Of a stretch of 39,086 nucleotides of DNA, positions 5,336-37,616 are shown piece by piece. A model generated the notes under the pieces. That model was given only the letters and a program-made list of their open reading frames with translations, ran no database searches and had not been told where the DNA came from. Where the stretch lies: IMG/VR virus record IMGVR_UViG_3300025400_000040, positions 1-39,086 of that record. One strand, 5' to 3'. This stretch comes from a virus. Position numbers and translations under genes: made by a program. Within the stretch, counting starts at the first letter, position 1. Each line of letters opens with the position of its first letter.

Positions 5336-6772
5336 TTACTTTTTGAGAGTGTTTCGGTGATCAATAACTGCCTGAACGAGCGATTTTTTGTCGTGCAGAG
5401 CTTTTAGCACATGCTTTTCTATCTCGCTGCTTACGAAATCGTAATAACTTACTGGCGATTTTTGTCCGTATCTGTGGTTGCGATCCATGGACTGCTCGCG
5501 GTCCACCAACACGAAGTTATTTTCGAAGAACGCGGTGGTATAGCAAGGCTGGTTTGGGCCTCCGAGTAGCGTATGCCCCGCCGAACCCACCGACACTTGG
5601 GCCACGAGCACTCTTGGACCGCCATCCTGGTTGAACCGGCTCTTTTGGGCTTCCATTTCTTCGATAGTCATTCCCCCCACTAAGAACGCACACCCTCCCG
5701 GCAAGGTGGATAGTTCTTCGACTAGATATTTGGAGGTTGGCCGAAAATGACAGAACACAAGCAATTTGGACTCGCCTAACCCGTCTAGCAAATCCAGCAA
5801 CGCCCGGTATTTTGGCAGTTTGTTCAACGGTACTAAAGTATGCGCTTCTTTGTACTCGTCATAAATGAACCCTGACGATATCTGTTGCAACTTGCCCATT
5901 TGAGTAACGACTAGCCGGGCAAGGATTGGGTCGTCCGGCGCGCGGGATTCTACCTCTACCAGGAATTCGGTCATCATGGATCGGTACGCCGGCTCAAGCT
6001 CTTTGGGCATTTCCAACGGTATTACGACCGGGGGCATTTTAGGAGGTAGGTCGGTCCATTCGGATTTCAAAGCTCGGAACGAACATTCATCCAAAATCTG
6101 GTTAAGCTCGGGCAATCTGGCCTGATTTATGCCAACAATCTGTTTGCCCATGTGCCCTCCTCGCAGGGCATACCGGTTTCGAAACACAAACTGGTTTAGC
6201 CCGTTCAGCTGCCCTGCCAATTTCAGCTGAGGATACAGGTCCATGACCGACTGGCTCATGGGCGTTCCAGTAAGACCTCGACGAGCAACGCAGTCCTTAG
6301 CCAGACCCAGGACGCTTTTGGACCATCTAGAACCCGGCGTTTTAATACGATGCCCTTCGTCCACTACCAGCATCGTAGGCGCGCTGTTGGCCAGTTCTGA
6401 CGCCCGGTCATACCCTCTGCCCCATCCTCGCCCCTGTCCGGCGAGCGACTCATAATTAACTATGAACACGTCCGGGTTGGCTTGGGGTTTGTCAGGCCAC
6501 ACTTCGATGCTTAATTTTTCCGGAATCCAGCGTTCGATTTCGGCTTTCCATGCCAACCGCATCGAATTTAGAGTGACTACAATCAGGCGCCGGGCTGGTG
6601 TGCCGTCTGTACGGGTTCGCCATCTCATAAAATTCTGAAGGGCCACGGCGGTTTTGCCTAAGCCTTGCTCCAACCACCAATTATACCCACGCTGGAAACC
6701 CGCTTTCTGGTCAGATATGCTTTGGACCTTGAACGGTTCGCCGTTGAGCAACCAGCGTGGATATTCGGACAT
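5336..6772 (-). CDS. SNF2-type DEAD/H helicase / ATPase
   Basis: The 478-residue protein shows superfamily 2 motifs in order: Walker A E-Q-G-L-G-K-T (residues 35-41), motif II V-V-D138-E-G-H, motif III G-L-T-G-T-P, and in the C-terminal RecA domain L-L-V-F-C-H-F and the SNF2-type end D-R-N-H-R-Y-G-Q. The expected role is ATP-driven translocation on duplex DNA during replication or recombination. It lies 11 bp after the DatZ gene in the same direction and closes the Z-genome cluster. SNF2-like helicases beside VRR-NUC and PolA genes are common in phage replication modules. Confidence 0.88.
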   Translation of the reverse strand: MSEYPRWLLNGEPFKVQSISDQKAGFQRGYNWWLEQGLGKTAVALQNFMRWRTRTDGTPARRLIVVTLNSMRLAWKAEIERWIPEKLSIEVWPDKPQANPDVFIVNYESLAGQGRGWGRGYDRASELANSAPTMLVVDEGHRIKTPGSRWSKSVLGLAKDCVARRGLTGTPMSQSVMDLYPQLKLAGQLNGLNQFVFRNRYALRGGHMGKQIVGINQARLPELNQILDECSFRALKSEWTDLPPKMPPVVIPLEMPKELEPAYRSMMTEFLVEVESRAPDDPILARLVVTQMGKLQQISSGFIYDEYKEAHTLVPLNKLPKYRALLDLLDGLGESKLLVFCHFRPTSKYLVEELSTLPGGCAFLVGGMTIEEMEAQKSRFNQDGGPRVLVAQVSVGSAGHTLLGGPNQPCYTTAFFENNFVLVDREQSMDRNHRYGQKSPVSYYDFVSSEIEKHVLKALHDKKSLVQAVIDHRNTLKK

Positions 6773-6783
6773 ATTAACCCCAA

Positions 6784-7365
6784 TCAGTCGATAAGTATGT
6801 TGGAAAAATGGCCCTCGCCGTTGGCCTGAATAGCTTTAAACACATCCTCCCAAATGCCGCTATCATTTAACAACGAAGACTCAGTCCATACCCGTTTTAA
6901 CCGGGAATAGCTGTTGCCCATAGGGGTGGTCGGTTTGTAAAAATGGCCGACGCTGCTGTTACCCAGTTGTTTTTCGGTCTGCAAATACACCAACTCGTCG
7001 ATCAAGTCTGCTGCCTTGATTAACGACCGTATATCGCCTTCTTGCTTAGACGTCCGCCATGCTTCCAGATGATCAGGAAAGCGCAAACTGATATAATCCG
7101 ACTCGACCCGAGTAACTCGACTGTCGTCGGCTATAGCCCGTTTCGCGGGTCCAGGAATGTCAGAAGTGGCCGCTTCTGGAAGATCATGAACCAAAGCAGC
7201 TTTCATTAGGTTCGCTTGGTCCCCCTTCCATCCTGCCGCGTGTGCCAATTGTAGAGCATAAACGGTAACGTAATAGCTATGTTCCGCTACGCTCTGGGTC
7301 CGATTGCGGCGAAGGACGCTCCATCTCGGAACGAATGTCAGTTCCCGGAGTTCCCGTTCCAGCAT
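6784..7365 (-). CDS. datZ: DatZ: HD-domain dATP triphosphohydrolase
   Basis: The 193-residue protein has the HD signature of the YfbR-like group: H29 (Q-S-V-A-E-H-S), H60-D61 with E64 and D69-I-P-x-P-x-K, and D120 (K-A-A-D-L-I-D). The N-terminal V-P-R-W-S-V segment supports the chosen start. In Z-genome phages DatZ hydrolyses dATP to deoxyadenosine and triphosphate, clearing the pool so that only dZTP is incorporated. The assignment as DatZ rather than a generic nucleotidase rests on its position directly after mazZ and purZ. Its first 89 bp overlap the end of mazZ in another frame. An alternative is a YfbR-type 5'-deoxynucleotidase. Confidence 0.85.
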   Translation of the reverse strand: MLERELRELTFVPRWSVLRRNRTQSVAEHSYYVTVYALQLAHAAGWKGDQANLMKAALVHDLPEAATSDIPGPAKRAIADDSRVTRVESDYISLRFPDHLEAWRTSKQEGDIRSLIKAADLIDELVYLQTEKQLGNSSVGHFYKPTTPMGNSYSRLKRVWTESSLLNDSGIWEDVFKAIQANGEGHFSNILID

Positions 7366-7639
7366 TTCTCATGACCCTTTGTTGTTTCAGCGCGGAAATC
7401 ACAAACCCCAGCGCAAAATTAGCGATGTCGGCACTTTCAAGAATCATATCGAAGGCGCTGCCACGGCTGGCAGCTTCTTCCAATTCGTCCACTTCTTCAC
7501 GCAGTTTGGCAAGCAGGACGGCTGGGGGACAATCCCCCAGAAATCCTTTGTGCTTGTTGAGTTTGAGCTTATAGCGCTGGGCATCGGCCATGAGGGCCAG
7601 AAATTCGTCGTATTCGGCGTAGGAACCAAACGTAGCCAT
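7277..7639 (-). CDS. mazZ: MazZ: MazG-like dGTP pyrophosphohydrolase
   Basis: The 120-residue protein has the MazG-type metal motif E49-x-x-E52 followed by E68-x-x-D71 (ILESADIANFA) in an all-alpha fold. GAAGGAG lies 7-13 nt before its ATG. In Z-genome phages MazZ converts dGTP (and GTP) to the monophosphate, supplying dGMP to PurZ, whose gene stops 4 bp before the mazZ start codon is reached. Residues after about 90 (GTGTPGTDIRSEM...) are low-complexity and are encoded in the 89-bp overlap with datZ. The stop falls at the codon for the first metal-binding His of DatZ. Confidence 0.85.
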   Translation of the reverse strand: MATFGSYAEYDEFLALMADAQRYKLKLNKHKGFLGDCPPAVLLAKLREEVDELEEAASRGSAFDMILESADIANFALGFVISALKQQRVMRNAGTGTPGTDIRSEMERPSPQSDPERSGT

Positions 7640-7642
7640 GGC

Positions 7643-8782
7643 TCATACTCCTTCGGAAGCCACCAAAGCAGATTTTTCCGCCGCCAGATATATCAAACGG
7701 TCGCACTGGCCGACACGAGGACCCCAGGAATACACATGGGCGGGCTGTAGTCCTGCGGTTCTCTCCACTGACCGCATGGTATACGCGAAATTTTCCAAGG
7801 TATCCTGCGATTCGTGCGCGTAAAGGTAATTGGTGAAGGTCAGGTATACGATATCAGGCCGGTTAAGCCGCAACGCGTTTAGATACTGGTCGTGCGACCA
7901 CGTGGCGATACGACGAACGCGCTTAGTAACGGTGGTCCGCTCTGGGACTACGTTTTGGAACTCTGACCATTCGAGTTCGAGACTGCCGGCGGCGAAATCG
8001 CCGGAATAGCCAACGGTAGCGCCAGCCTCGTCCGTAATGTTGCCAACTCGGATCGGGAACGTGCGGCAGACCATGGCGACTTTGCCCAGATACTTTGGGT
8101 TAATCCCGGCGTCGGTCATTCCCTGTCCTACCCAGCAGTCGCGGGAAGTGCAGTGAGGAAAGAATCCACCTGCATTAATGCTCAGGCCGGTTCCTTGGGG
8201 GATCTCAATGGAAACGGCGAACATGCCACTTTCCAGCATTGCGTTCAGATCCAGCATCGCCACTCGGAACGGCACGTCGTCGCGGAAATGACCGACAGTG
8301 GAATGATTTTCGCGGCGGATTTTTGAAACCAGAGCTTCGCCCACGCCCTTTTGGGTAGAGCCGATGGACCGAACCGAACCAGTCTTCTCAGTTTCCTTGT
8401 GCTTGGTCGAGATCAGCGCTGCCTGAGGGTGGACCACAATACGCGCCCACATATGGTCTTCGTCTTCGCCAGTGACGGCACACACGTCGTGTACCTCTTG
8501 CAGGAATAGGTCCAAATCCATGATGGACCCCGCGTTAATGTAAATGCGGGAGTCTGACAACATAACGCCGATAGTCGGCAGGTGGTAGCAGACGAATTTG
8601 CGTCCGTCGTCCAGCACCGTGGTATGCCCGGCTTGTGCGCCGGCATTAGTAGTGCTGATGATTGGGACGTCCACGGAGCTGCTAGTGATAGCCAAATGAG
8701 CGGCTACCAGCCCTTTAGCCTCACTGCCGAACTGCCCGCCCACTACCACGGATGCAGTGCCGGCTTTGAAAAATTCTACCAT
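7643..8782 (-). CDS. purZ: PurZ: 2-aminoadenylosuccinate synthetase (dGMP to dSMP)
   Basis: The 379-residue protein is a PurA-family enzyme. Its P-loop reads G15-G-Q-F-G-S20-E-A-K-G, where bacterial PurA has G-x-x-W-G-D-E-G-K-G. The essential Asp is replaced by Ser, the hallmark of PurZ that makes room for the 2-amino group of dGMP. The N-A-G-A-Q-A-G-H-T segment keeps the PurA His. PurZ condenses dGMP with L-aspartate at the expense of ATP or dATP; host PurB then yields dZMP. It starts at 8782 behind AAGGAGACACCC and is followed by mazZ and datZ in one operon. A cellular PurA would be about 430 residues and keep the Asp. Confidence 0.93.
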   Translation of the reverse strand: MVEFFKAGTASVVVGGQFGSEAKGLVAAHLAITSSSVDVPIISTTNAGAQAGHTTVLDDGRKFVCYHLPTIGVMLSDSRIYINAGSIMDLDLFLQEVHDVCAVTGEDEDHMWARIVVHPQAALISTKHKETEKTGSVRSIGSTQKGVGEALVSKIRRENHSTVGHFRDDVPFRVAMLDLNAMLESGMFAVSIEIPQGTGLSINAGGFFPHCTSRDCWVGQGMTDAGINPKYLGKVAMVCRTFPIRVGNITDEAGATVGYSGDFAAGSLELEWSEFQNVVPERTTVTKRVRRIATWSHDQYLNALRLNRPDIVYLTFTNYLYAHESQDTLENFAYTMRSVERTAGLQPAHVYSWGPRVGQCDRLIYLAAEKSALVASEGV

Positions 8783-8793
8783 AGGGTGTCTCC

Positions 8794-9177
8794 TTAAGAT
8801 TCGTATTTGGATTTGTCTTCAGCGTCTTTGACTCGTTGGCGATCCTGAACGGCAGCAACAAGCAAAGCGTACCCGGCGATGTCAATCCAGCTGTCTCGGT
8901 GGTCCCACCCATTGCAGGCTAGCCTGGACAATTTGCCCCGGATCATCTCAACGGCGGTTGCCACGGTATGGCTAACGGGGGATACCCCAGAGCTGGGCAG
9001 TACTACCAGTTGGGCGAACCCCAACGCCGCAGCAATATTCTGGTTAATCGCCGCATTGTCCTCGAAATCACTGTAATTAGCCCCACGTTCAACCAGAGTG
9101 GCGTTCAACTCTTCCAATATCTTCTTCACGAACCCCGATATAGGGGGGCGAGAATTTGTGGTAAAATCACTGGCCAT
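8794..9177 (-). CDS. DUF6378-like phage protein
   Basis: The 127-residue helical protein contains L-V-E-R-G-A-N-Y-S-D-F near residue 30 and a C-terminal D-S-W-I-D-I-A-G-Y-A-L-L motif, with E-M-I-R-G-K-L-S-R-L between. This pattern is found in the DUF6378 family of phage proteins, whose function is not established. It starts inside the VRR-NUC gene (52-bp overlap) behind GGAAAAGAGG and lies directly before purZ. A link to nucleotide metabolism is suggested only by neighbours. Confidence 0.75.
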   Translation of the reverse strand: MASDFTTNSRPPISGFVKKILEELNATLVERGANYSDFEDNAAINQNIAAALGFAQLVVLPSSGVSPVSHTVATAVEMIRGKLSRLACNGWDHRDSWIDIAGYALLVAAVQDRQRVKDAEDKSKYES

Positions 9178-9560
9178 GATTTGCCTCTTTTCCTTTCTAC
9201 TGACTTTGCTCTGAATTCTTCGACTGTGGGGTTGTGATTAGGGTCTTGGCACGTATAGATATACTCGGATGTCCCTTCCTGACAGATCGCAAGCCAGCCG
9301 CAGTGACTACCTGCTAAGTGCATCTGCATTAAAGTCTGCTTTTGTAGGGCAGTCAAACCATTTGCGATTGGACGGTTAGAACCCGGTTTGGGCAGCGTTT
9401 TCCAAAGCTTTACTTCCACCATCAGACTGGGGAAATTCGGCATTTGGAGGAATAAATCAGGAATGCCGCCCAGGAACCGGTTGGACAGCTTAAACGCGAA
9501 TCCTCCGACCCCCTTGCAGGCTTTTACCAAGTGAGTCTGGTACTGTAATTCGCTTGCCAT
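9126..9560 (-). CDS. VRR-NUC-type PD-(D/E)xK nuclease
   Basis: The 144-residue protein has the catalytic core of the VRR-NUC superfamily: G-G-I-P-D-L-F-L (residues 31-38), then L-M-V-E-V-K-L-W about 13 residues later, giving P-D...E-x-K. A downstream helix, L-T-A-L-Q-K-Q-T-L-M-Q-M-H-L-A-G, and a G-W-L-A-I-C strand complete the fold. Such nucleases act on branched DNA or replication intermediates and are common between PolA and SNF2 helicase genes in phages. It lies 8 bp after the polymerase gene. The C-terminal 50 residues are not part of the core. Confidence 0.82.
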   Translation of the reverse strand: MASELQYQTHLVKACKGVGGFAFKLSNRFLGGIPDLFLQMPNFPSLMVEVKLWKTLPKPGSNRPIANGLTALQKQTLMQMHLAGSHCGWLAICQEGTSEYIYTCQDPNHNPTVEEFRAKSVERKRGKSWPVILPQILAPLYRGS

Positions 9561-9568
9561 GACATGCC

Positions 9569-11506
9569 CTATTGTAGATAGTGTTTATCTTTGGTGAAAG
9601 TGGCATCTGCCCAGTTGGCGCCCACGCCATACTCAGCTCCCATTGGCACTAGCAACGGCGTCGTCTTACCTGGGCCATAGTCCACCATTAGCCTGAGGGC
9701 CTCCATAACAATCGCCCGGCTTTCAGGTGTCGGGTGGGCCTGGAACGACAACGCATCGTGCACGGTGTTAAGCATGTGCACGGTGTCTCCGTTTTCCTCC
9801 AGGTGTCGATCTATCTTAACCATCGCGTCTTTGATGATGTCGGCATTCCCGCACTGCAACAACCGATTGACGGCCTTGTAGGAAAACTTGGGGTCGTCCA
9901 GTCTAGCGCGCCGCCCCATCAGCGAAATCACGAACCCTCTCGAAGTCATCTGGCTGGCAGCCCGTTTCTGCAAATTCTTAATCTCTGGCATTTTGTCGAA
10001 GTACTGGTTGTAAACCTCGTCCGCCCGGTCTCCCAACATTTCTCGGATGCGTGTCAGCCCCCCGCCTGTAAGCAGAGTTTGGTTAAGCCGCTTGCCATCC
10101 TCCCGGTCTATACCTGCAGCAACCGCCACGGCGGTGTGGGCGTCAACGGGCGGGTCGGCCAAGTATCCGTTTACTAACACCTCGGCTTTGCTGTAGTGGG
10201 CCAGCAATCGTGGTTCGCACTGCGACAAATCGACGTCCCACCATTCCATACCCTCGTCTGGCAGGAACACTTGCCTAAATAGCTGGGCCAGTTCTTTATT
10301 CCTCTTAGGCACTTGTTGCAGATTGGGGTCAGAACAACTAAGGCGTCCGGTTACGGTACCGAAATCATCCGCTCTCATCGGGTGGAAGGTGGCCCTAACC
10401 CGACTATCAGCATGGACGTGTCGCTCACGTAACGGGATAGCAAACGAGTTACAGATATTGGAGTATTTCCGCACCCCCAGGACATGTCGGCCCATCTCGT
10501 TAGACTTAAGGAAAGCTTCGTTGAACTCTGGGTTGCCCACGGCCTTTAATCCCAGCTTCTCCGCCTTCGCAATCATCAGCGGTGTCGGCGGCTTAGTTGG
10601 CCAATCCGTCACGCCGTTGTCTAACATTAGTTTCTTGATCTGAGGGGACGATCGAACGTTGAAACCTTCCGGCAAGTTCTTAGACGACTGTTCAGCAATG
10701 CACTGACAGTGGGTAATAACCTCGTCCAGTTTGGGCAAGTCGATCCTAATCCCCCGCTTCGCCATACGATGGATAACCCTTAAAGTGTCAGACTCCGCCT
10801 TCCATGGCCGCAGTAGATTCTGGCCCTCTAGGCGTTGCAACTGACGTTCGCGCAAAAGCCACGTCGCCTCGCCGTCCCCCGCGCCATAGTCGAAGCCAAT
10901 AGGGTCGTCCCCATCCAAGCGCCAGTAGTTAGCCATCTGGCCGCGTTCGGGCGCTCCCCCGAATTTACGAGACAAGTGCTCATACAAGTCTTTGCCCAGC
11001 TTTTCCTTGGTGCCCATTACCTTGCAGCAGGACTCCAGCGAAAAGCTGTGCTGGTGCTCGTCGAGCAAACACGCGTTGGACTGGGTATCCTCAAACGTGC
11101 CGACAAACTCGACGCCGTGGCCATAATTAAACATTAAGTCGAATTGCAGGTTGTGGCCGATCCAATGCAAATCGCGGCGGGTGCGAGTGATCTGGTCCAA
11201 CTCGATCTCGAACGGGTGCGCCGCGACCCCTCCGACGGGTTTTTTACCGTCGTACTGGTGCCCCGGTATTACATTAGCGTCCCGGCCTGTTCCCGCCGCT
11301 CCGTGGCGCACGGGGATGTAGTAAGTATCGTGTGGGGAAGGACCGAACGTAATAACGTGGCCAACGATGTAATTGGTGGGCCAATGTAGCCCGGTAGTTT
11401 CGCAGTCATAAACCAAGGTGCGGGTGGTGTCGTCTTTCAACCGTCGAAACACTTCGCCGGCCATTTCCATGTTGGTAACTAATACCGGCGAAGCGGAACC
11501 ATTCAT
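9569..11506 (-). CDS. dpoZ: DpoZ-type family A DNA polymerase with 3'-5' exonuclease
   Basis: The 645-residue protein has an N-terminal DnaQ-like proofreading domain: Exo I D34-C-E36, Exo II G-H-N-L-Q-F-D, Exo III Y-G-A-G-D. A PolA domain follows: T-G-R-L-S-C-S-D-P-N-L-Q-Q, motif A D-L-S-Q-C-E-P-R-L-L-A-H, a divergent O-helix region R-L-N-Q-T-L-L-T-G-G-G, and motif C V-H-D-A. There is no 5'-3' exonuclease domain. In several Z-genome siphoviruses DpoZ is the polymerase that prefers dZTP and edits out A; the name is given by linkage to purZ, mazZ and datZ. The changed O-helix and the Ala in motif C differ from E. coli Pol I. Confidence 0.85.
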   Translation of the reverse strand: MNGSASPVLVTNMEMAGEVFRRLKDDTTRTLVYDCETTGLHWPTNYIVGHVITFGPSPHDTYYIPVRHGAAGTGRDANVIPGHQYDGKKPVGGVAAHPFEIELDQITRTRRDLHWIGHNLQFDLMFNYGHGVEFVGTFEDTQSNACLLDEHQHSFSLESCCKVMGTKEKLGKDLYEHLSRKFGGAPERGQMANYWRLDGDDPIGFDYGAGDGEATWLLRERQLQRLEGQNLLRPWKAESDTLRVIHRMAKRGIRIDLPKLDEVITHCQCIAEQSSKNLPEGFNVRSSPQIKKLMLDNGVTDWPTKPPTPLMIAKAEKLGLKAVGNPEFNEAFLKSNEMGRHVLGVRKYSNICNSFAIPLRERHVHADSRVRATFHPMRADDFGTVTGRLSCSDPNLQQVPKRNKELAQLFRQVFLPDEGMEWWDVDLSQCEPRLLAHYSKAEVLVNGYLADPPVDAHTAVAVAAGIDREDGKRLNQTLLTGGGLTRIREMLGDRADEVYNQYFDKMPEIKNLQKRAASQMTSRGFVISLMGRRARLDDPKFSYKAVNRLLQCGNADIIKDAMVKIDRHLEENGDTVHMLNTVHDALSFQAHPTPESRAIVMEALRLMVDYGPGKTTPLLVPMGAEYGVGANWADATFTKDKHYLQ

Positions 11507-15213: not shown

Positions 15214-16053
15214 TTAACTTACGCTCGGGACGTCGATCGCAAACGGGGGCAGGCCCAGATATTTACGCACTTTGTTTACCCGGTCCATGTCCGACCCATC
15301 ACAATCGAAACCCCGGTCTTGACACCAACGACGAATATACCAAAATGGGGCTAGAATAATACCATCCGGGCCTACTTTTTCCACATAAGGCTCTGCGACG
15401 ACAGGTTGCACGTAGGCAAAGGTTGTAGGTTTCGGTGGCAGCCTGGGAGGCACCGGGGGTAGTTTTGGAGCGGGAATTTTGGGCTTTTTCACAACCGGTT
15501 TTAGAGCCGACACCCGCTTATAGCGAAGCCCCATCCTCATCATTTTCTTTTCGACGGACGACACAGTAACTTCTGGGCCTTCGGTCTTACTGATTAATTT
15601 GGCAAGGTTAGACCTCGACAGTCCGTCGTCAACGCCACGGCGCAGAATTTCCTCGCGTTCGCTGCCCCAACGATTAATCATTCCGACGTCGTATCGGCCA
15701 TCCGTGGGCCTCGACAACTTAAGCTTTCGGGCATGGTTCCCCATGGCGAATTTCGTAACCTTTGGGCCTTCAGACTCATTAATCATCGCGAGGATAACCG
15801 CTTGGGTCTTCAAACCGGGCCACTCAGCGCGCAAAATGTCTTTGCGTTTAGGCGTCCACACCCTGTCTTCGACTTCGTACGAGGGTGGACGTTTCGCGCC
15901 TAAAAACCCCAATTGGGATTTCATTCTGGTCATCGTAACCAGGGGTCCGTCCAGCTTGTTTAACTCGGCCAAGATTTTGTCGCGAGGCATTTCCTCGGCA
16001 TACAAGCGACGAAGTAAATCTTTGCGCTCTTGTGGCCAACGCGGCAATTTCAT
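15214..16053 (-). CDS. Triple HTH-repeat DNA-binding protein, GcrA/SANT-like
   Basis: The 279-residue protein has three homologous units at about residues 5-55, 65-115 and 128-176. Each has the form W-x-x-x-R-K-D-x-L-R...I-L-A-x-x-N-x-x-x-G-P-x-V-T...K-x-L-G-L. This resembles the helix-turn-helix of GcrA-type regulators and Myb/SANT repeats, in which an N-terminal Trp packs the helices. A Pro/Lys linker (190-225) and a C-terminal segment (PFWYIRRWCQDRGFDCDGSD) follow. Three repeats suggest binding to an extended or repeated DNA target. It may be a phage transcription regulator; this is inferred from the domain type. Confidence 0.6.
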   Translation of the reverse strand: MKLPRWPQERKDLLRRLYAEEMPRDKILAELNKLDGPLVTMTRMKSQLGFLGAKRPPSYEVEDRVWTPKRKDILRAEWPGLKTQAVILAMINESEGPKVTKFAMGNHARKLKLSRPTDGRYDVGMINRWGSEREEILRRGVDDGLSRSNLAKLISKTEGPEVTVSSVEKKMMRMGLRYKRVSALKPVVKKPKIPAPKLPPVPPRLPPKPTTFAYVQPVVAEPYVEKVGPDGIILAPFWYIRRWCQDRGFDCDGSDMDRVNKVRKYLGLPPFAIDVPSVS

Positions 16054-16731: not shown

Positions 16732-19038
16732 TCAGTATCTCACCATCTCGTTTACCAGTTTTAGGGTCCGATAGTTTACAACCTTGTTACCTGCAACGCG
16801 CTTAAGGCGTGTTGGGAACCCGGATGCAGTCAGCAGCTTGCCCCATTGGATAATGGAGTAACAGTACAGTTTACCCGCCTCGCAATATTCCCGATAGGAC
16901 AAGAACAAGTCGGCATTTGGGGAACCCTCGCCTATCTCAGTTTTCTCGGTAGCGTTGGCCATCCAGGACGCAACCGAGTTGGCCTCCTCGGTGGCTTGGC
17001 GCACCGCCAGTTTGGAATAGTTAGGAGGCTCGAACCGTCCTCGCTCTTGCAGCCGGGCATACGCCGCGATCCAGCGGTTCAGGATTCCAGGGGCTTCCTT
17101 CAGTAGTAGGCGATGATACTCAGGAATTTCCTCGGTGGGCGGCACGTCGGTAGTGCGCAGCAAAATCATTCGTTTGGATATTGCCCCGGTCGAATCCGTT
17201 GTATCAGGCGGCAGATTGCCGTGGAACAGCATGCGAGCCGACACCACCCCGTTAAACCGGTCTTTGTACAACAGCTTGAGCGGAATAGGCTCGCCGGAAG
17301 TAATCTTGAGTAACGCGGTGTCCACGTCCTTGTTGTGTCGGCCAATTTCGCCCGAGATATTAACGTGGGAGTTCGCCATACTCATAACCGCGTTGGGGTC
17401 GTCGAGCAACGACATCGCGACATCCGACACCCAATCCGCCGGCAGCAGAGCCTTGATTAACTTAACCATCTCAGATTTGCCGGTGCTCGTCTTGCCGACC
17501 AGGAACAACATATTTCGGAACTCGTGCGACGCCACCAAACAGTATCCTAGAAACTCTTCCAAAGTCTCGATCGCCCTAGTATGGTCGGCCTCGTAACAGT
17601 CAGTGTCCAGATATTCGGCGGGCGGCAGCATTAGGTCGGTAATAAATTTATCGTACAAAGGGCAAGCTCGATCGGCCTCGAACGGGTGCGGAATGTGGGC
17701 CAGTACGTAATCGTCCCGCGCCTCTGGTCGTAATGATAAAGTGCGAACGTCCACCACACCATTGACGAATGGGACTAGAAATTGGTCTGGCTGCGGTCTG
17801 CGTACTGGCAGCCAGTCCAAGAAATCCTCAACGGCGGAACTAGTGGAGTTCCTACCCGCACCGGGAAATGCGATCTGGATGCGTTCTCTCAGCGGCTGGA
17901 CAGGATTCCTACATAACGCGTCCACCATCGTGGTCCACTTAGAATCGTGCCAATAGTAAGGAGACCCGTTAAAAGACCCCACGTCCTCTTTCTGGAATTG
18001 GGTTTTGAGCCAGTCTGCCGCCAGCCGGTCCATAGGAACTTTGGACGCTTTGGCCGACTTAGTTTTCGCCGGCTTCTGTTCAGGATACTTGCTCGCCAGA
18101 GTCTTAACAGAATTGCGAATCGCGGTTCGACGCTCGGAATAATGACTTTCGTCTTCGCAGGATCGATATGCCTCAGTCTCGCAGATATAAACAATTTCGT
18201 CGGCGGTAAACTTTTCGTGCCACAAATAAAGCGATGCTTCGAGCATCAGCTCGTGGAAGTTGCCTTTCGATGTCTGACCCAAAAAGCGCCAAATGGGGCT
18301 GTCGAGATTTTTGGCTAATTGGAACAACAATAACAAATGGGGTTCTTCGAATAGGGGCAAATCCGAGGGGTCTGTCTCCTCAAGCTTAAGGATAATTTCG
18401 GAACCTGGAAATTTAATCCATTCGTAGTACAATTCCCGACCCAGCAACTGAGTTCCTTGGTGGTGCAGAGACGGCGGAAGGATCGAATGCCGGTTCGCCG
18501 TGCCAAGAATGTCGATGTATTCGTGCTCCCATCGATCAGACCCAATCTTACCGGACTGCACGGAATTCTTGGCGCGGCCATTCTTGTCTAGGATTTTGGG
18601 TATCGGAATGTCGCGTTGTTTGAGCAGAGAATCGACTGCCGCAGCCTTACGAGCACGAACGAAAAAGGTGGCTCCACGGGCACCTCTTTTAACCGGGCAA
18701 GGCATGCCGACAACCAACGCGACTTTGTCCAAAGTATTCTGGTCTCGCACATCGACGTCGATGGCTAGAAGCACGTCGGACGAGTTACGTAGATACGGAA
18801 CCGCAACGGAAATGCCGCATCCCGGATGACGCTCGAAAATAGCCAAGACGTCGCTGATGGGAGGGGCGTTGCCATGATCGTCAGGCTTGGTGATAGATAC
18901 GTCGTTGCCTGCGGCAATCCAGCCTTTGCCATCTTCTCCGGAGCCACAAGGTACGGCGTAATAGCCCCGACTAAGTAGCTGAGCGGCCAAAGCAACTGGC
19001 AAATTGGTGTCGTTGATTAAGAAGCGATAGTTTGCCAC
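16732..19038 (-). CDS. Bifunctional PrimPol (AEP primase) and SF3 helicase
   Basis: The 768-residue protein joins an N-terminal AEP primase-polymerase domain, with catalytic L-L-A-I-D94-V-D96-V, to a C-terminal D5/SF3-type helicase. The helicase has Walker A V-G-K-T-S-T-G-K-S-E near residue 514, N-I-S-G-E-I-G, and a D5-like N-G-V-V-D-V-R start. It would prime and unwind DNA at the replication fork. The start is GTG at 19038 behind GGAGATACCCCACCC. The iteron locus 19141-19414 lies immediately upstream, which fits a replication initiation module. In Z-genome phages a PrimPol is also known (S-2L), there without DpoZ; here both occur. Confidence 0.87.
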   Translation of the reverse strand: MANYRFLINDTNLPVALAAQLLSRGYYAVPCGSGEDGKGWIAAGNDVSITKPDDHGNAPPISDVLAIFERHPGCGISVAVPYLRNSSDVLLAIDVDVRDQNTLDKVALVVGMPCPVKRGARGATFFVRARKAAAVDSLLKQRDIPIPKILDKNGRAKNSVQSGKIGSDRWEHEYIDILGTANRHSILPPSLHHQGTQLLGRELYYEWIKFPGSEIILKLEETDPSDLPLFEEPHLLLLFQLAKNLDSPIWRFLGQTSKGNFHELMLEASLYLWHEKFTADEIVYICETEAYRSCEDESHYSERRTAIRNSVKTLASKYPEQKPAKTKSAKASKVPMDRLAADWLKTQFQKEDVGSFNGSPYYWHDSKWTTMVDALCRNPVQPLRERIQIAFPGAGRNSTSSAVEDFLDWLPVRRPQPDQFLVPFVNGVVDVRTLSLRPEARDDYVLAHIPHPFEADRACPLYDKFITDLMLPPAEYLDTDCYEADHTRAIETLEEFLGYCLVASHEFRNMLFLVGKTSTGKSEMVKLIKALLPADWVSDVAMSLLDDPNAVMSMANSHVNISGEIGRHNKDVDTALLKITSGEPIPLKLLYKDRFNGVVSARMLFHGNLPPDTTDSTGAISKRMILLRTTDVPPTEEIPEYHRLLLKEAPGILNRWIAAYARLQERGRFEPPNYSKLAVRQATEEANSVASWMANATEKTEIGEGSPNADLFLSYREYCEAGKLYCYSIIQWGKLLTASGFPTRLKRVAGNKVVNYRTLKLVNEMVRY

Positions 19039-20894: not shown

Positions 20895-21545
20895 TTAAAT
20901 GAAGTCCAAAGATGGAAACTCTTTTCGGATCAATTCCCTAGCTTCTTCTGCAATAATCCGGTGCTCTTTCTGCGTCGATGGATCGGTGCGGACAGCAATG
21001 TAATGAATCCACTGCCGCAGGGTGCCGTTGGCATACATGCGGGTCTTCATCAGGCCCTCGGGAAGCACGGCGCGGGCTTGTTCCTTGGCAATGCCAAGTT
21101 TCAATGCCTCTTTATAAGCGGCATTCGTGCATTCAACGACGTGCCTTTGCGTGGTATTCCACCAATTTTCCAAATCCATATCATCAAGGCCCGGTTCGAT
21201 GCTGTTCTGCCGGTTTTTGGGGTCTTGTAACCGCGCCTCGCGCGTTTCAAAATCCAGCGATTTCGTGGGGTCGGCATAACGCTGGCTGAACTCCTGAAAG
21301 CGGAAACCATGTCGCAGGATTTGCCGGCCAATGTCGCGCGTGGTTTCGATCTCCATCACGATGTTGACCATTTCGAAGATCGAAAAATGTTTATTGTCGT
21401 AGCAATACTTCAATAGCTTCCCGCCAGTTTCAGTGTTTGTCTGGTTGTCGGGATTGCTCACCCTGGCTGCGTAGACGATAAATTCCTCGGGTGTGTTGAT
21501 GCCCTCAACACGGGGCTGCGTGACGGCGACGATGCGAATTTTCAT
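20895..21545 (-). CDS. thyX: ThyX: FAD-dependent thymidylate synthase
   Basis: The start at 21545 (MKIRIVAVTQ...) follows GAAGGACAACAC and overlaps the upstream stop (ATGA); a longer in-frame extension is rejected. The 216-residue protein has the ThyX signature region I-L-R78-H-G-F-R-F-Q-E-F-S-Q-R-Y90 and R-A-V-L-P-E-G-L-M-K-T-R, which provides the dUMP-contacting residues. It methylates dUMP to dTMP using methylenetetrahydrofolate, NADPH and FAD. In a Z-genome phage it supplies the T that pairs with Z. The RHR triad of cellular ThyX is shortened to R-H-G here. Confidence 0.93.
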   Translation of the reverse strand: MKIRIVAVTQPRVEGINTPEEFIVYAARVSNPDNQTNTETGGKLLKYCYDNKHFSIFEMVNIVMEIETTRDIGRQILRHGFRFQEFSQRYADPTKSLDFETREARLQDPKNRQNSIEPGLDDMDLENWWNTTQRHVVECTNAAYKEALKLGIAKEQARAVLPEGLMKTRMYANGTLRQWIHYIAVRTDPSTQKEHRIIAEEARELIRKEFPSLDFI

Positions 21546-21694
21546 GTGTTGTCCTTCAGTGCTTTTCTGCCGGGTGGCGTGATGCGACATAGTGCAGTAT
21601 TGGCGGAAAGAATATGCGCCTCTGCATGTCCGCTTTTTGACAATGGCGCAAATTCGCTGGTCATTGCTTTAATCACCGCTTCGCGCGCGGTCAT
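21542..21694 (-). CDS. Small protein with MTxREAVIxAM start, 50 aa
   Basis: The start at 21694 (MTAREAVIKAMTSEFAP...) has GGGAGGTGGGGA upstream; the longer in-frame ORF to 21757 lacks one. It ends T-P-P-G-R-K-A-L-K-D-N, as in small winged-helix ends. The first 11 residues resemble the start of the next upstream gene, suggesting a duplicated start module. It overlaps both neighbours by 4 bp. Confidence 0.55.
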   Translation of the reverse strand: MTAREAVIKAMTSEFAPLSKSGHAEAHILSANTALCRITPPGRKALKDNT

Positions 21695-36593: not shown

Positions 36594-37616
36594 ATGGCTA
36601 ACATTACCGCCGCCCGCGTAATGGTTTCTCCGCACTACATGGTGCCGGAAAAGCTGTTGCAATACAATCAAGCCTCTGGTGCATTCGACGCCCTGGCTGG
36701 TGCAAACCCGCAAGTTCGCTTGGGTGAAGGCGATCTCTACGTGTATATCGACGCGTTCGATATCCGCACGGTGATGTCGTCTGGTCAAAGCGAATACAAC
36801 TCGCTTCCCAGCGTTACGGTGACCGCCCGCCAGATTTCGACCCCGACTTATTTGCAGCGCGTTCGCGCAGAATACGACCATCACGACACCGCTGCCATGT
36901 CGCAGTGGGGCGTCAGCATCGTCGAAGCGCAGCGTCTCGGCATGCGTCAGGGTCATTTCCAGCTGATGCGTTCCGCTCTGCTCTACGGCATGAACGGCGC
37001 GAACGGCGAAGGCTTGCTGAACACTTCTGGCGCTACCACGGTCAACCTCCCGGCTGACTCGAACGGCAACACTACCGTTGTCACTTACGACAACGGCCAA
37101 ATGGCGTTCTTCCTGCTGTCGCAGGTGTCGGCCATGAAGACCCGCACCATGCAGCTCGGTATGGGTCACCGTATTGTGATCCTCGGACCGCAGCGTGTTC
37201 TTGGTTCGTGGGAGTATCAGGATATCGTCCAGGTTACCCAGTTCCAGCGCGTCGGTGCCGGCTCTCTCTCCACTGCCGGCGTTGTCAAGGCGGTTGGCGA
37301 GATGAACGAGGACGAAATCCTCTGGTGCTACGACGATACTTTGATCGGCAAAGGTGCCAATGGTACTGACGCTGTCCTGATCGTCATGCCGGAAGTCGAA
37401 AAACCCCGTGGTGGCCGCGTCAACACCAACGCGTTCGCTGAACTGTCGCCGGGTCTCGCGGCTTGCACCATGCAGTTCTGCGACATGGCCGCGCCTCGCG
37501 AAATCCCGACCCCGCTGCCGGGTGGCGCGATTGACGTGCTTTCGGAAATGCGTATCACTTCTGGTTGGGGCGTTCGCCCGGAAGCTATCGCTATTCTGAG
37601 CATGCAGTACCAGTAA
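36594..37616 (+). CDS. Major capsid protein (DUF2184-type)
   Basis: The 340-residue protein has a helical N-terminal part (YLQRVRAEYDHHDTAAMSQW) and the conserved C-terminal block of DUF2184 capsid proteins: Y-D-D-T-L-I-G-K-G-A-N-G, N-T-N-A-F-A-E-L-S-P-G, A-P-R-E-I-P-T-P-L-P-G-G-A-I-D-V-L-S-E-M and S-G-W-G-V-R-P-E-A-I. It should adopt the HK97 fold. AAGGAGCCGCACTC precedes the ATG. It is among the most confident structural calls here. Confidence 0.9.
   Translation: MANITAARVMVSPHYMVPEKLLQYNQASGAFDALAGANPQVRLGEGDLYVYIDAFDIRTVMSSGQSEYNSLPSVTVTARQISTPTYLQRVRAEYDHHDTAAMSQWGVSIVEAQRLGMRQGHFQLMRSALLYGMNGANGEGLLNTSGATTVNLPADSNGNTTVVTYDNGQMAFFLLSQVSAMKTRTMQLGMGHRIVILGPQRVLGSWEYQDIVQVTQFQRVGAGSLSTAGVVKAVGEMNEDEILWCYDDTLIGKGANGTDAVLIVMPEVEKPRGGRVNTNAFAELSPGLAACTMQFCDMAAPREIPTPLPGGAIDVLSEMRITSGWGVRPEAIAILSMQYQ

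Follow-up and report, generated by a model that had tools for sequence, protein, structure and literature searches.

A predicted 2-aminoadenine DNA module in a divergent tailed phage and the non-aromatic helix O of its polymerase

Which proteins would allow a phage to build its DNA with 2-aminoadenine (Z) and to keep adenine (A) out of it? This question is raised by a run of minus-strand genes at positions 5336-11506 of virus record IMGVR_UViG_3300025400_000040 of IMG/VR, a stretch of 39,086 bases that we call the window and to which, at its full length, all coordinates refer. In transcription order, the run encodes a family A DNA polymerase (PolA), a PD-(D/E)xK-type nuclease, a DUF6378 protein, PurZ, MazZ-2, DatZ and an SNF2 helicase. 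Our reading, to which we give a probability of roughly 0.87, is that these genes are a module for replication and nucleotide metabolism in a tailed phage, one that produces Z-DNA by way of PurZ, MazZ-2 and DatZ; as judged from sequence, Z is very likely present in the DNA of this phage. The lengths of the open reading frames and their family matches are far beyond chance across the run, and the mazZ and datZ frames overlap by 89 bases. A first-pass annotation had placed here a PurA-family enzyme, a MazG-type protein, an HD phosphohydrolase, a PolA with 3'-5' exonuclease and an SNF2 helicase, and all five were recovered at its coordinates. It had also named a complete cluster of purZ, mazZ, datZ and dpoZ: the first three names hold, by residues, trees and conserved order, while the dpoZ label is weaker, its model score being low and the published signature absent.

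Identity, residues, gene order and phylogeny of the Z genes are matters of direct observation, and they are clearest for PurZ. The gene (7643-8782, minus strand) encodes a predicted succino-2-amino-deoxyadenylate synthase of 379 residues, which the NCBIfam PurZ model matches with an E-value of 6e-66 and PF00709 with 1.7e-25; PurA models match it more weakly than the PurZ model does. Its P-loop, VVGGQFGSEAKG (8711-8746, minus strand), contains the letters GSEAKG, as the annotation had said, and the diagnostic Ser20, which replaces the catalytic Asp at the position of Asp13 of Escherichia coli PurA. The same Ser stands in all 151 phage rows compared, and a 2026 survey reports it in all phage PurZ (PMC12884076). 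The segment T283-T286 (TTVT) and V246 correspond to the substrate loop T273-T276 and V241 of S-2L PurZ, R290 also matches a residue of that enzyme, and H53 is present (residue descriptions in PMC8342488); the TTVT loop and V246 are likewise as in phiVC8 PurZ. The best matches among solved structures are the PurZ enzymes of phiVC8 (6fm1, E 7e-36) and S-2L (7odx). In a tree of 71 rows, in which the PurA outgroup is a single long-branch sequence, the window PurZ falls in a phage clade of 43 rows (SH-like approximate likelihood ratio test, 99) with phage OH and many IMG/VR contigs. This clade has the phiVC8/SH-Ab clade as its sister and lies apart from both the PurZ0 enzymes of Arthrobacter phages and E. 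coli PurA; although the GSEAKG letters are common to the window and PurZ0, the tree does not group the two. The comparison of PurZ with PurA that the annotation had proposed thus puts the window enzyme outside ordinary PurA, with the Asp not restored. A single-sequence PurZ search of viral_contigs gave zero matches; searches by profile yielded 414 and 119 relatives.

Phage-type purZ genes were also seen in very large phage contigs (L056, L057, L062 and L075, in records of 142, 161, 111 and 287 kb), where mazZ and datZ were not found within 7 kb of purZ. PurA-like genes with Ser for the catalytic Asp occur besides in bacterial and archaeal genome contigs (L235-L309; Bradyrhizobium, Sphingomonas, Nostoc, Lokiarchaeota), mostly with no Z partner gene nearby; their number is biased because the search patterns themselves contained Ser.

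The next gene, mazZ (7277-7639, minus strand), lies between purZ and datZ and encodes a predicted MazG-like deoxynucleoside triphosphate pyrophosphohydrolase of the MazZ-2 type, with 120 residues (PF01503, E 5.8e-5, above the Pfam cut-off). When 50,697 phage records were searched by tblastn, 23 of the 24 matches fell in Z-phages (the phiVC8 group, ZP6 and OH), and in these mazZ adjoins purZ. Residues E49, E52, E68 and D71 correspond to the metal-binding E35, E38, E50 and D53 of S-2L and are invariant in 18 relatives. A MazZ profile matches the MazG-like structure 2p06 (E 6e-10); with the structural model (predicted local distance difference test, pLDDT, 86), Foldseek returned nothing under 0.001, its best entries being 2p06 and MazG proteins. 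At locus L032 (6989-8431), PurZ and MazZ-2 are fused in one open reading frame, an independent sign that both proteins act together. In five other loci (L035, L036, L039, L040 and L045), mazZ-2 stands about 5 kb upstream of purZ instead of between purZ and datZ. A kinship of MazZ-2 with MazZ-1/DUF550 was considered and set aside, as the profile comparison was not significant (8% probability).

The third enzyme, DatZ (6784-7365, minus strand), is a putative HD-domain dATP triphosphohydrolase of 193 residues, with matches to the YfbR-like family (E 5e-16) and to phrog_7076, annotated as dATP triphosphohydrolase (E 3e-21); a profile of Z-phage DatZ proteins finds the S-2L DatZ structure 6zpa with an E-value of 4.5e-24. 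The metal ligands of the HD domain are intact (H29, H60, D61 and D120), and R14, K75 and K117 stand for the published phosphate-binding R19, K81 and K116. The base pocket is retained at W15, P73, Q24 and A27, corresponding to W20, P79, Q29 and A32 (residue roles in PMC8065100).

The arrangement of these genes is widely conserved. Profiles run on fetched loci identified the full set of polymerase, nuclease, purZ, mazZ-2, datZ and snf2 in 63 loci and the set without datZ in 27 more, counts that include some near-duplicates; the gene order of phage vB_OspP_OH matches that of the window, and a homologue of the nuclease stands in the equivalent place in about 100 loci. The window proteins share at most 57% identity with any protein compared and at most 37% with those of isolates, and isolated phages have no similarity to the window at the DNA level. 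The window adds a new and divergent member to the PurZ/DatZ/MazZ-2 type. Two relatives, L153 (5935-10011) and L157 (5725-10517), carry PolA, nuclease and SNF2 with none of purZ, mazZ and datZ between them, and a search of their whole records (66 and 41 kb) found no purZ. Most simply, the Z genes would be a cassette placed between the nuclease and the helicase of an older replication module. L153 and L157 may be seen as a natural 'empty site'.

The same two loci bear on the flanking genes. The SNF2-type helicase (5336-6772, minus strand; PF00176, E 1.4e-15; phrog_62, E 1e-83) is the last gene of the run, and the nuclease (9126-9560, minus strand, 144 residues) has a PD...ExK motif (GIPDLF...EVK). 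The idea that these two proteins are adapted to Z-DNA is unsupported, since L153 and L157 possess both, along with the PolA, and are free of Z genes; the helicase is not specific to Z. The name VRR-NUC, given earlier to the nuclease, exceeds the evidence: neither the protein nor its homologues have a Pfam match, and the motif together with a weak match to the phrog_93 endonuclease (E 1.9e-4) supports at most 'PD-(D/E)xK nuclease'. The DUF6378 protein (8794-9177, minus strand, 127 residues; PF19905, E 4.5e-6), which the first-pass annotation had passed over, has a similar open reading frame in the Z-free L157. A role as a nucleotide hydrolase akin to MazZ or to DUF5664-DUF550 was rejected for it: profile comparisons were not significant, and it occurs away from Z genes too.

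The first gene of the run (9569-11506, minus strand) encodes the PolA, a DpoZ candidate of 645 residues (PF00476, E 3.7e-46). All exonuclease residues (D34, E36, D123, Y207 and D211) and polymerase residues (D426, E431, R468, K472, H583 and D584) are present, and the AlphaFold model (pLDDT 88.4) has as its best Foldseek matches the Klenow fragment (1kfs, E 2e-32) and phiVC8 DpoZ (7pbk, E 6e-32). The gene lies beside purZ, and its tree clade is sister to the phiVC8-like DpoZ; the fingers insertions 2 and 3 of the phiVC8 type are absent from it.

What sets this polymerase apart is helix O (codons at 10067-10105, minus strand; residues 468-480, a helix in the AlphaFold model). Its sequence, REDGKRLNQTLLT, holds no aromatic residue: R468 and K472 are retained, Q476 occupies the position of Klenow Phe762, and T480 that of Klenow Tyr766 and phiVC8 Phe459, in an alignment that is ungapped between Lys472 and Gln476/Thr480. 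A Phe at the Tyr766 position is the only change common to both DpoZ groups, Tyr being otherwise strictly conserved there (PMC8599892); this published signature is absent from the window, which has Thr480 instead. Among 93 distinct PolAs on purZ loci, the position is Thr in 58, Ser in 2, Asn in 2, Met in 1, Phe in 19 and Tyr in 11, so that it is non-aromatic in 63 of 93, against 1 of 81 relatives on purZ-free loci (80 Tyr and 1 Asn; L153 has Tyr and L157 Asn). After clustering at 70% identity, the Z-linked sequences divide into 23 Thr, 2 Ser, 2 Asn, 10 Phe and 10 Tyr, and the others into 27 Tyr and 1 Asn. Two PolA rows with odd helix-O letters and very long branches (L044 and L234) were not relied on. 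On the PolA tree, the polar form is nested inside the Z lineage. In the Klenow enzyme, the mutation Y766S is reported to give a more open active site and reduced fidelity (PMC3121766).

How might these proteins work together? Every step of the chemistry, like the presence of Z in virion DNA, is inferred from the named homologues. MazZ would convert deoxyguanosine triphosphate (dGTP) to the monophosphate dGMP; PurZ, using ATP or dATP, would join dGMP to aspartate to give succino-2-amino-deoxyadenylate (dSMP); host PurB and nucleotide kinases would complete the triphosphate of Z (dZTP); DatZ would turn dATP into deoxyadenosine and thereby withhold A; and the phage PolA would copy the genome with dZTP and proofread it. 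In the homologues, MazZ supplies dGMP, PurZ makes dSMP, host enzymes finish dZTP and DatZ removes dATP (PMC8342488, PMC8065100). Less certainly, the polymerase may form a second layer of A exclusion. Three hydrogen bonds join Z to T and G to C, and two join A to T. With the aromatic residue of helix O gone, the enzyme would hold the nascent pair less firmly, and the pair's own bonds would count for more; pairs with three bonds (Z:T and G:C) would be extended, and A:T pairs would more often be sent to the exonuclease. A looser hold of this kind would strengthen the mechanism proposed for phiVC8 DpoZ, which is thought to favour Z by proofreading the weaker A:T pairs (PMC8599892).

Several observations weigh against this account. 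The PurZ model NF038379 gives the window enzyme 223 bits, below its cut-off of 300 (phage OH scores 241 and E. coli PurA 127); this cut-off is an annotation threshold and not a biological trait, and the score marks a divergent member. The guanine-pocket residues Ile56 and Asp60 of MazZ-1 are replaced by Asn74 and Gly78, a loss reported for MazZ-2 generally, and in DatZ, Ser68 takes the place of the otherwise strict Gly74, and Val17 that of Ile22. No paper was found in which the DNA or the enzymes of the window phage or of phage OH had been tested for Z. An ordinary adenylosuccinate synthetase that boosts adenosine monophosphate, among generic nucleotide enzymes, would agree with membership of PF00709 and with the reading given to the OH genes in 2020 as nucleotide metabolism and salvage (PMC7139368), but the invariant Ser, the co-occurrence with MazZ-2 and DatZ and the position in the PurZ tree all argue against it, and we consider it very improbable. 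Somewhat less far-fetched, yet still improbable, is a pathway that replaces A by Z only partially, or one that is decaying in the window phage. Replacement was indeed only partial when the S-2L cluster was expressed in E. coli (PMC8342488), and the model scores lie below their cut-offs; on the other side, none of the four frames is broken, the catalytic residues are retained, and dozens of divergent contigs share the gene order.

The polymerase step is the less certain part of the proposal. The DpoZ model NF038380 scores the window PolA at 272 bits for a cut-off of 500, and PolAs with no purZ outscore it (YuA 293, L153 320). We therefore rejected this score as proof of a DpoZ and, the published signature also being absent, the dpoZ label draws on context and tree. 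L157 combines Asn at the Tyr766 position with the absence of purZ from its record. On the PolA tree, four changes are required for Z status and four for the polar residue, and the trait differs in one of the four independent contrasts between Z and non-Z lineages. With this one informative contrast, the helix-O change marks a lineage and does not amount to a tested correlation; the pattern reflects one or few evolutionary events instead of independent replicates, and we claim no statistical link to purZ, the independent contrasts being too few. The main competing explanation bears on this step alone and does not conflict with a Z genome: Z is made, the polymerase is indifferent to A and Z, and DatZ alone excludes A, as in S-2L with its PrimPol, the change in helix O being drift or serving another purpose such as lesion tolerance. 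DatZ and an unselective polymerase suffice in S-2L (PMC8065100), the window has a DatZ, its PolA lacks the signature Phe, and the DpoZ profile fails to separate Z from non-Z PolAs; we give this explanation a serious chance, a little short of even odds. Mildly against it speak 28 loci in which purZ and mazZ-2 lie next to snf2 with no datZ, 12 of whose records (five of 36-45 kb) contain no datZ that we could find anywhere, which, provided that the records are sufficiently complete, means that A has to be kept out in another way at these loci; the records may be incomplete, or another enzyme may replace DatZ, and a search of the datZ-less loci for a replacing gene returned zero candidates. Where these clusters have a full PolA, helix O is non-aromatic in all. 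Beyond the two-layer proposal, one may tentatively picture a third class of Z-genome polymerases, most of them from uncultured phages, whose near-universal Tyr of helix O has become Thr, Ser or Asn, and Phe762 often Gln, Met or Leu, with weaker enzyme contacts and efficient extension of three-bond pairs only; we hold this to be rather unlikely. If it were true, A exclusion would be a property of the polymerase, and part of the class could dispense with DatZ.

Clusters lacking datZ, with polA, nuclease, purZ, mazZ-2 and snf2 adjacent, are found at L071, L074, L077, L081, L084, L088, L093, L097, L100-L102, L104, L112-L114 and L124, among others.

Pinpointing where Z-phage polymerases select Z over A has been called difficult, Phe459 being the sole substitution common to both groups (PMC8599892), and the window clade, which shows that even this Phe is not general, offers a new handle. 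Within one family, a single active-site position is found in nature as Tyr, Phe, Thr, Ser or Asn, in relatives that bear datZ, lack it or are free of Z, so that natural enzymes are at hand to test where the selection is made. Of the purZ-linked PolAs sampled from environmental viral contigs, most fall in a branch for which one cultured representative was found, phage OH.

Elsewhere in the window, a D5-like primase-helicase (16732-19038, minus strand; PF08706, E 4.7e-8; phrog_864 DNA primase, E 7e-48) is the probable replication partner of the PolA. A ThyX-type thymidylate synthase (20895-21590; PF02511, E 6e-36) suggests that the phage may supply dTMP too, and a protein with a GcrA cell-cycle regulator domain (15214-16053; PF07750, E 1.9e-6) may indicate an alphaproteobacterial host. 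The major capsid protein (36594-37616) is 63-64% identical to those of Klebsiella phage Chronis and Yersinia YenM phages. Neither turned up among the relatives of the Z module, which makes the genome a mosaic. No terminal direct repeat was found in the 39,086 bases.

How does the window compare with known Z systems? The joint presence of purZ, mazZ, datZ and a Z-type PolA is already known from phiVC8-like phages (PMC8599892), and PurZ, PurZ0 and two DpoZ groups have been described (PMC12884076). The novelty lies in the polymerase variant, which we did not find described in the literature searched (subscription papers being outside the search), and in the size of its clade. Cyanophage S-2L has a purZ-mazZ-datZ cluster and shares most DatZ pocket residues with the window, but it uses MazZ-1 and PrimPol and has no PolA (PMC8342488, PMC8065100). 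Acinetobacter phage SH-Ab 15497 and Salmonella phage PMBT28 share PurZ, DatZ and a PurZ-type PolA with the window, whereas their dGTP enzyme is DUF5664-DUF550/MazZ-1 and that of the window MazZ-2, two types whose profile comparison was not significant. The Arthrobacter phage group of Korra and Wayne has a P-loop identical to that of the window, GSEAKG, but belongs to the PurZ0 branch, with DutZ, DmtZ and DUF5664 instead of DatZ and MazZ (PMC12884076), and its PolA, of a separate lineage, has aromatic residues at the positions of Phe762 and Tyr766. In Vibrio phage phiVC8 and Alteromonas phage ZP6, PurZ, the MazZ-2 type enzyme, DatZ and PolA are all homologous to those of the window; there, however, the helicase lies elsewhere and a primase stands between polA and purZ, and phiVC8 DpoZ has helix-O insertion 2 and Leu455/Phe459 (PMC8599892) where the window PolA, with neither insertion 2 nor 3, has Gln and Thr. 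Ochrobactrum phage vB_OspP_OH (Wolominvirus) differs by the absence of a DUF6378 match, and its proteins are distant (37% identity for PurZ, 36% for PolA), but its order, PolA-(hypothetical)-nuclease-(hypothetical)-purZ-mazZ-(hypothetical)-datZ-helicase, is like that of the window, and its PolA is likewise non-aromatic in helix O, with Ser at the Tyr766 position and Met at Phe762.

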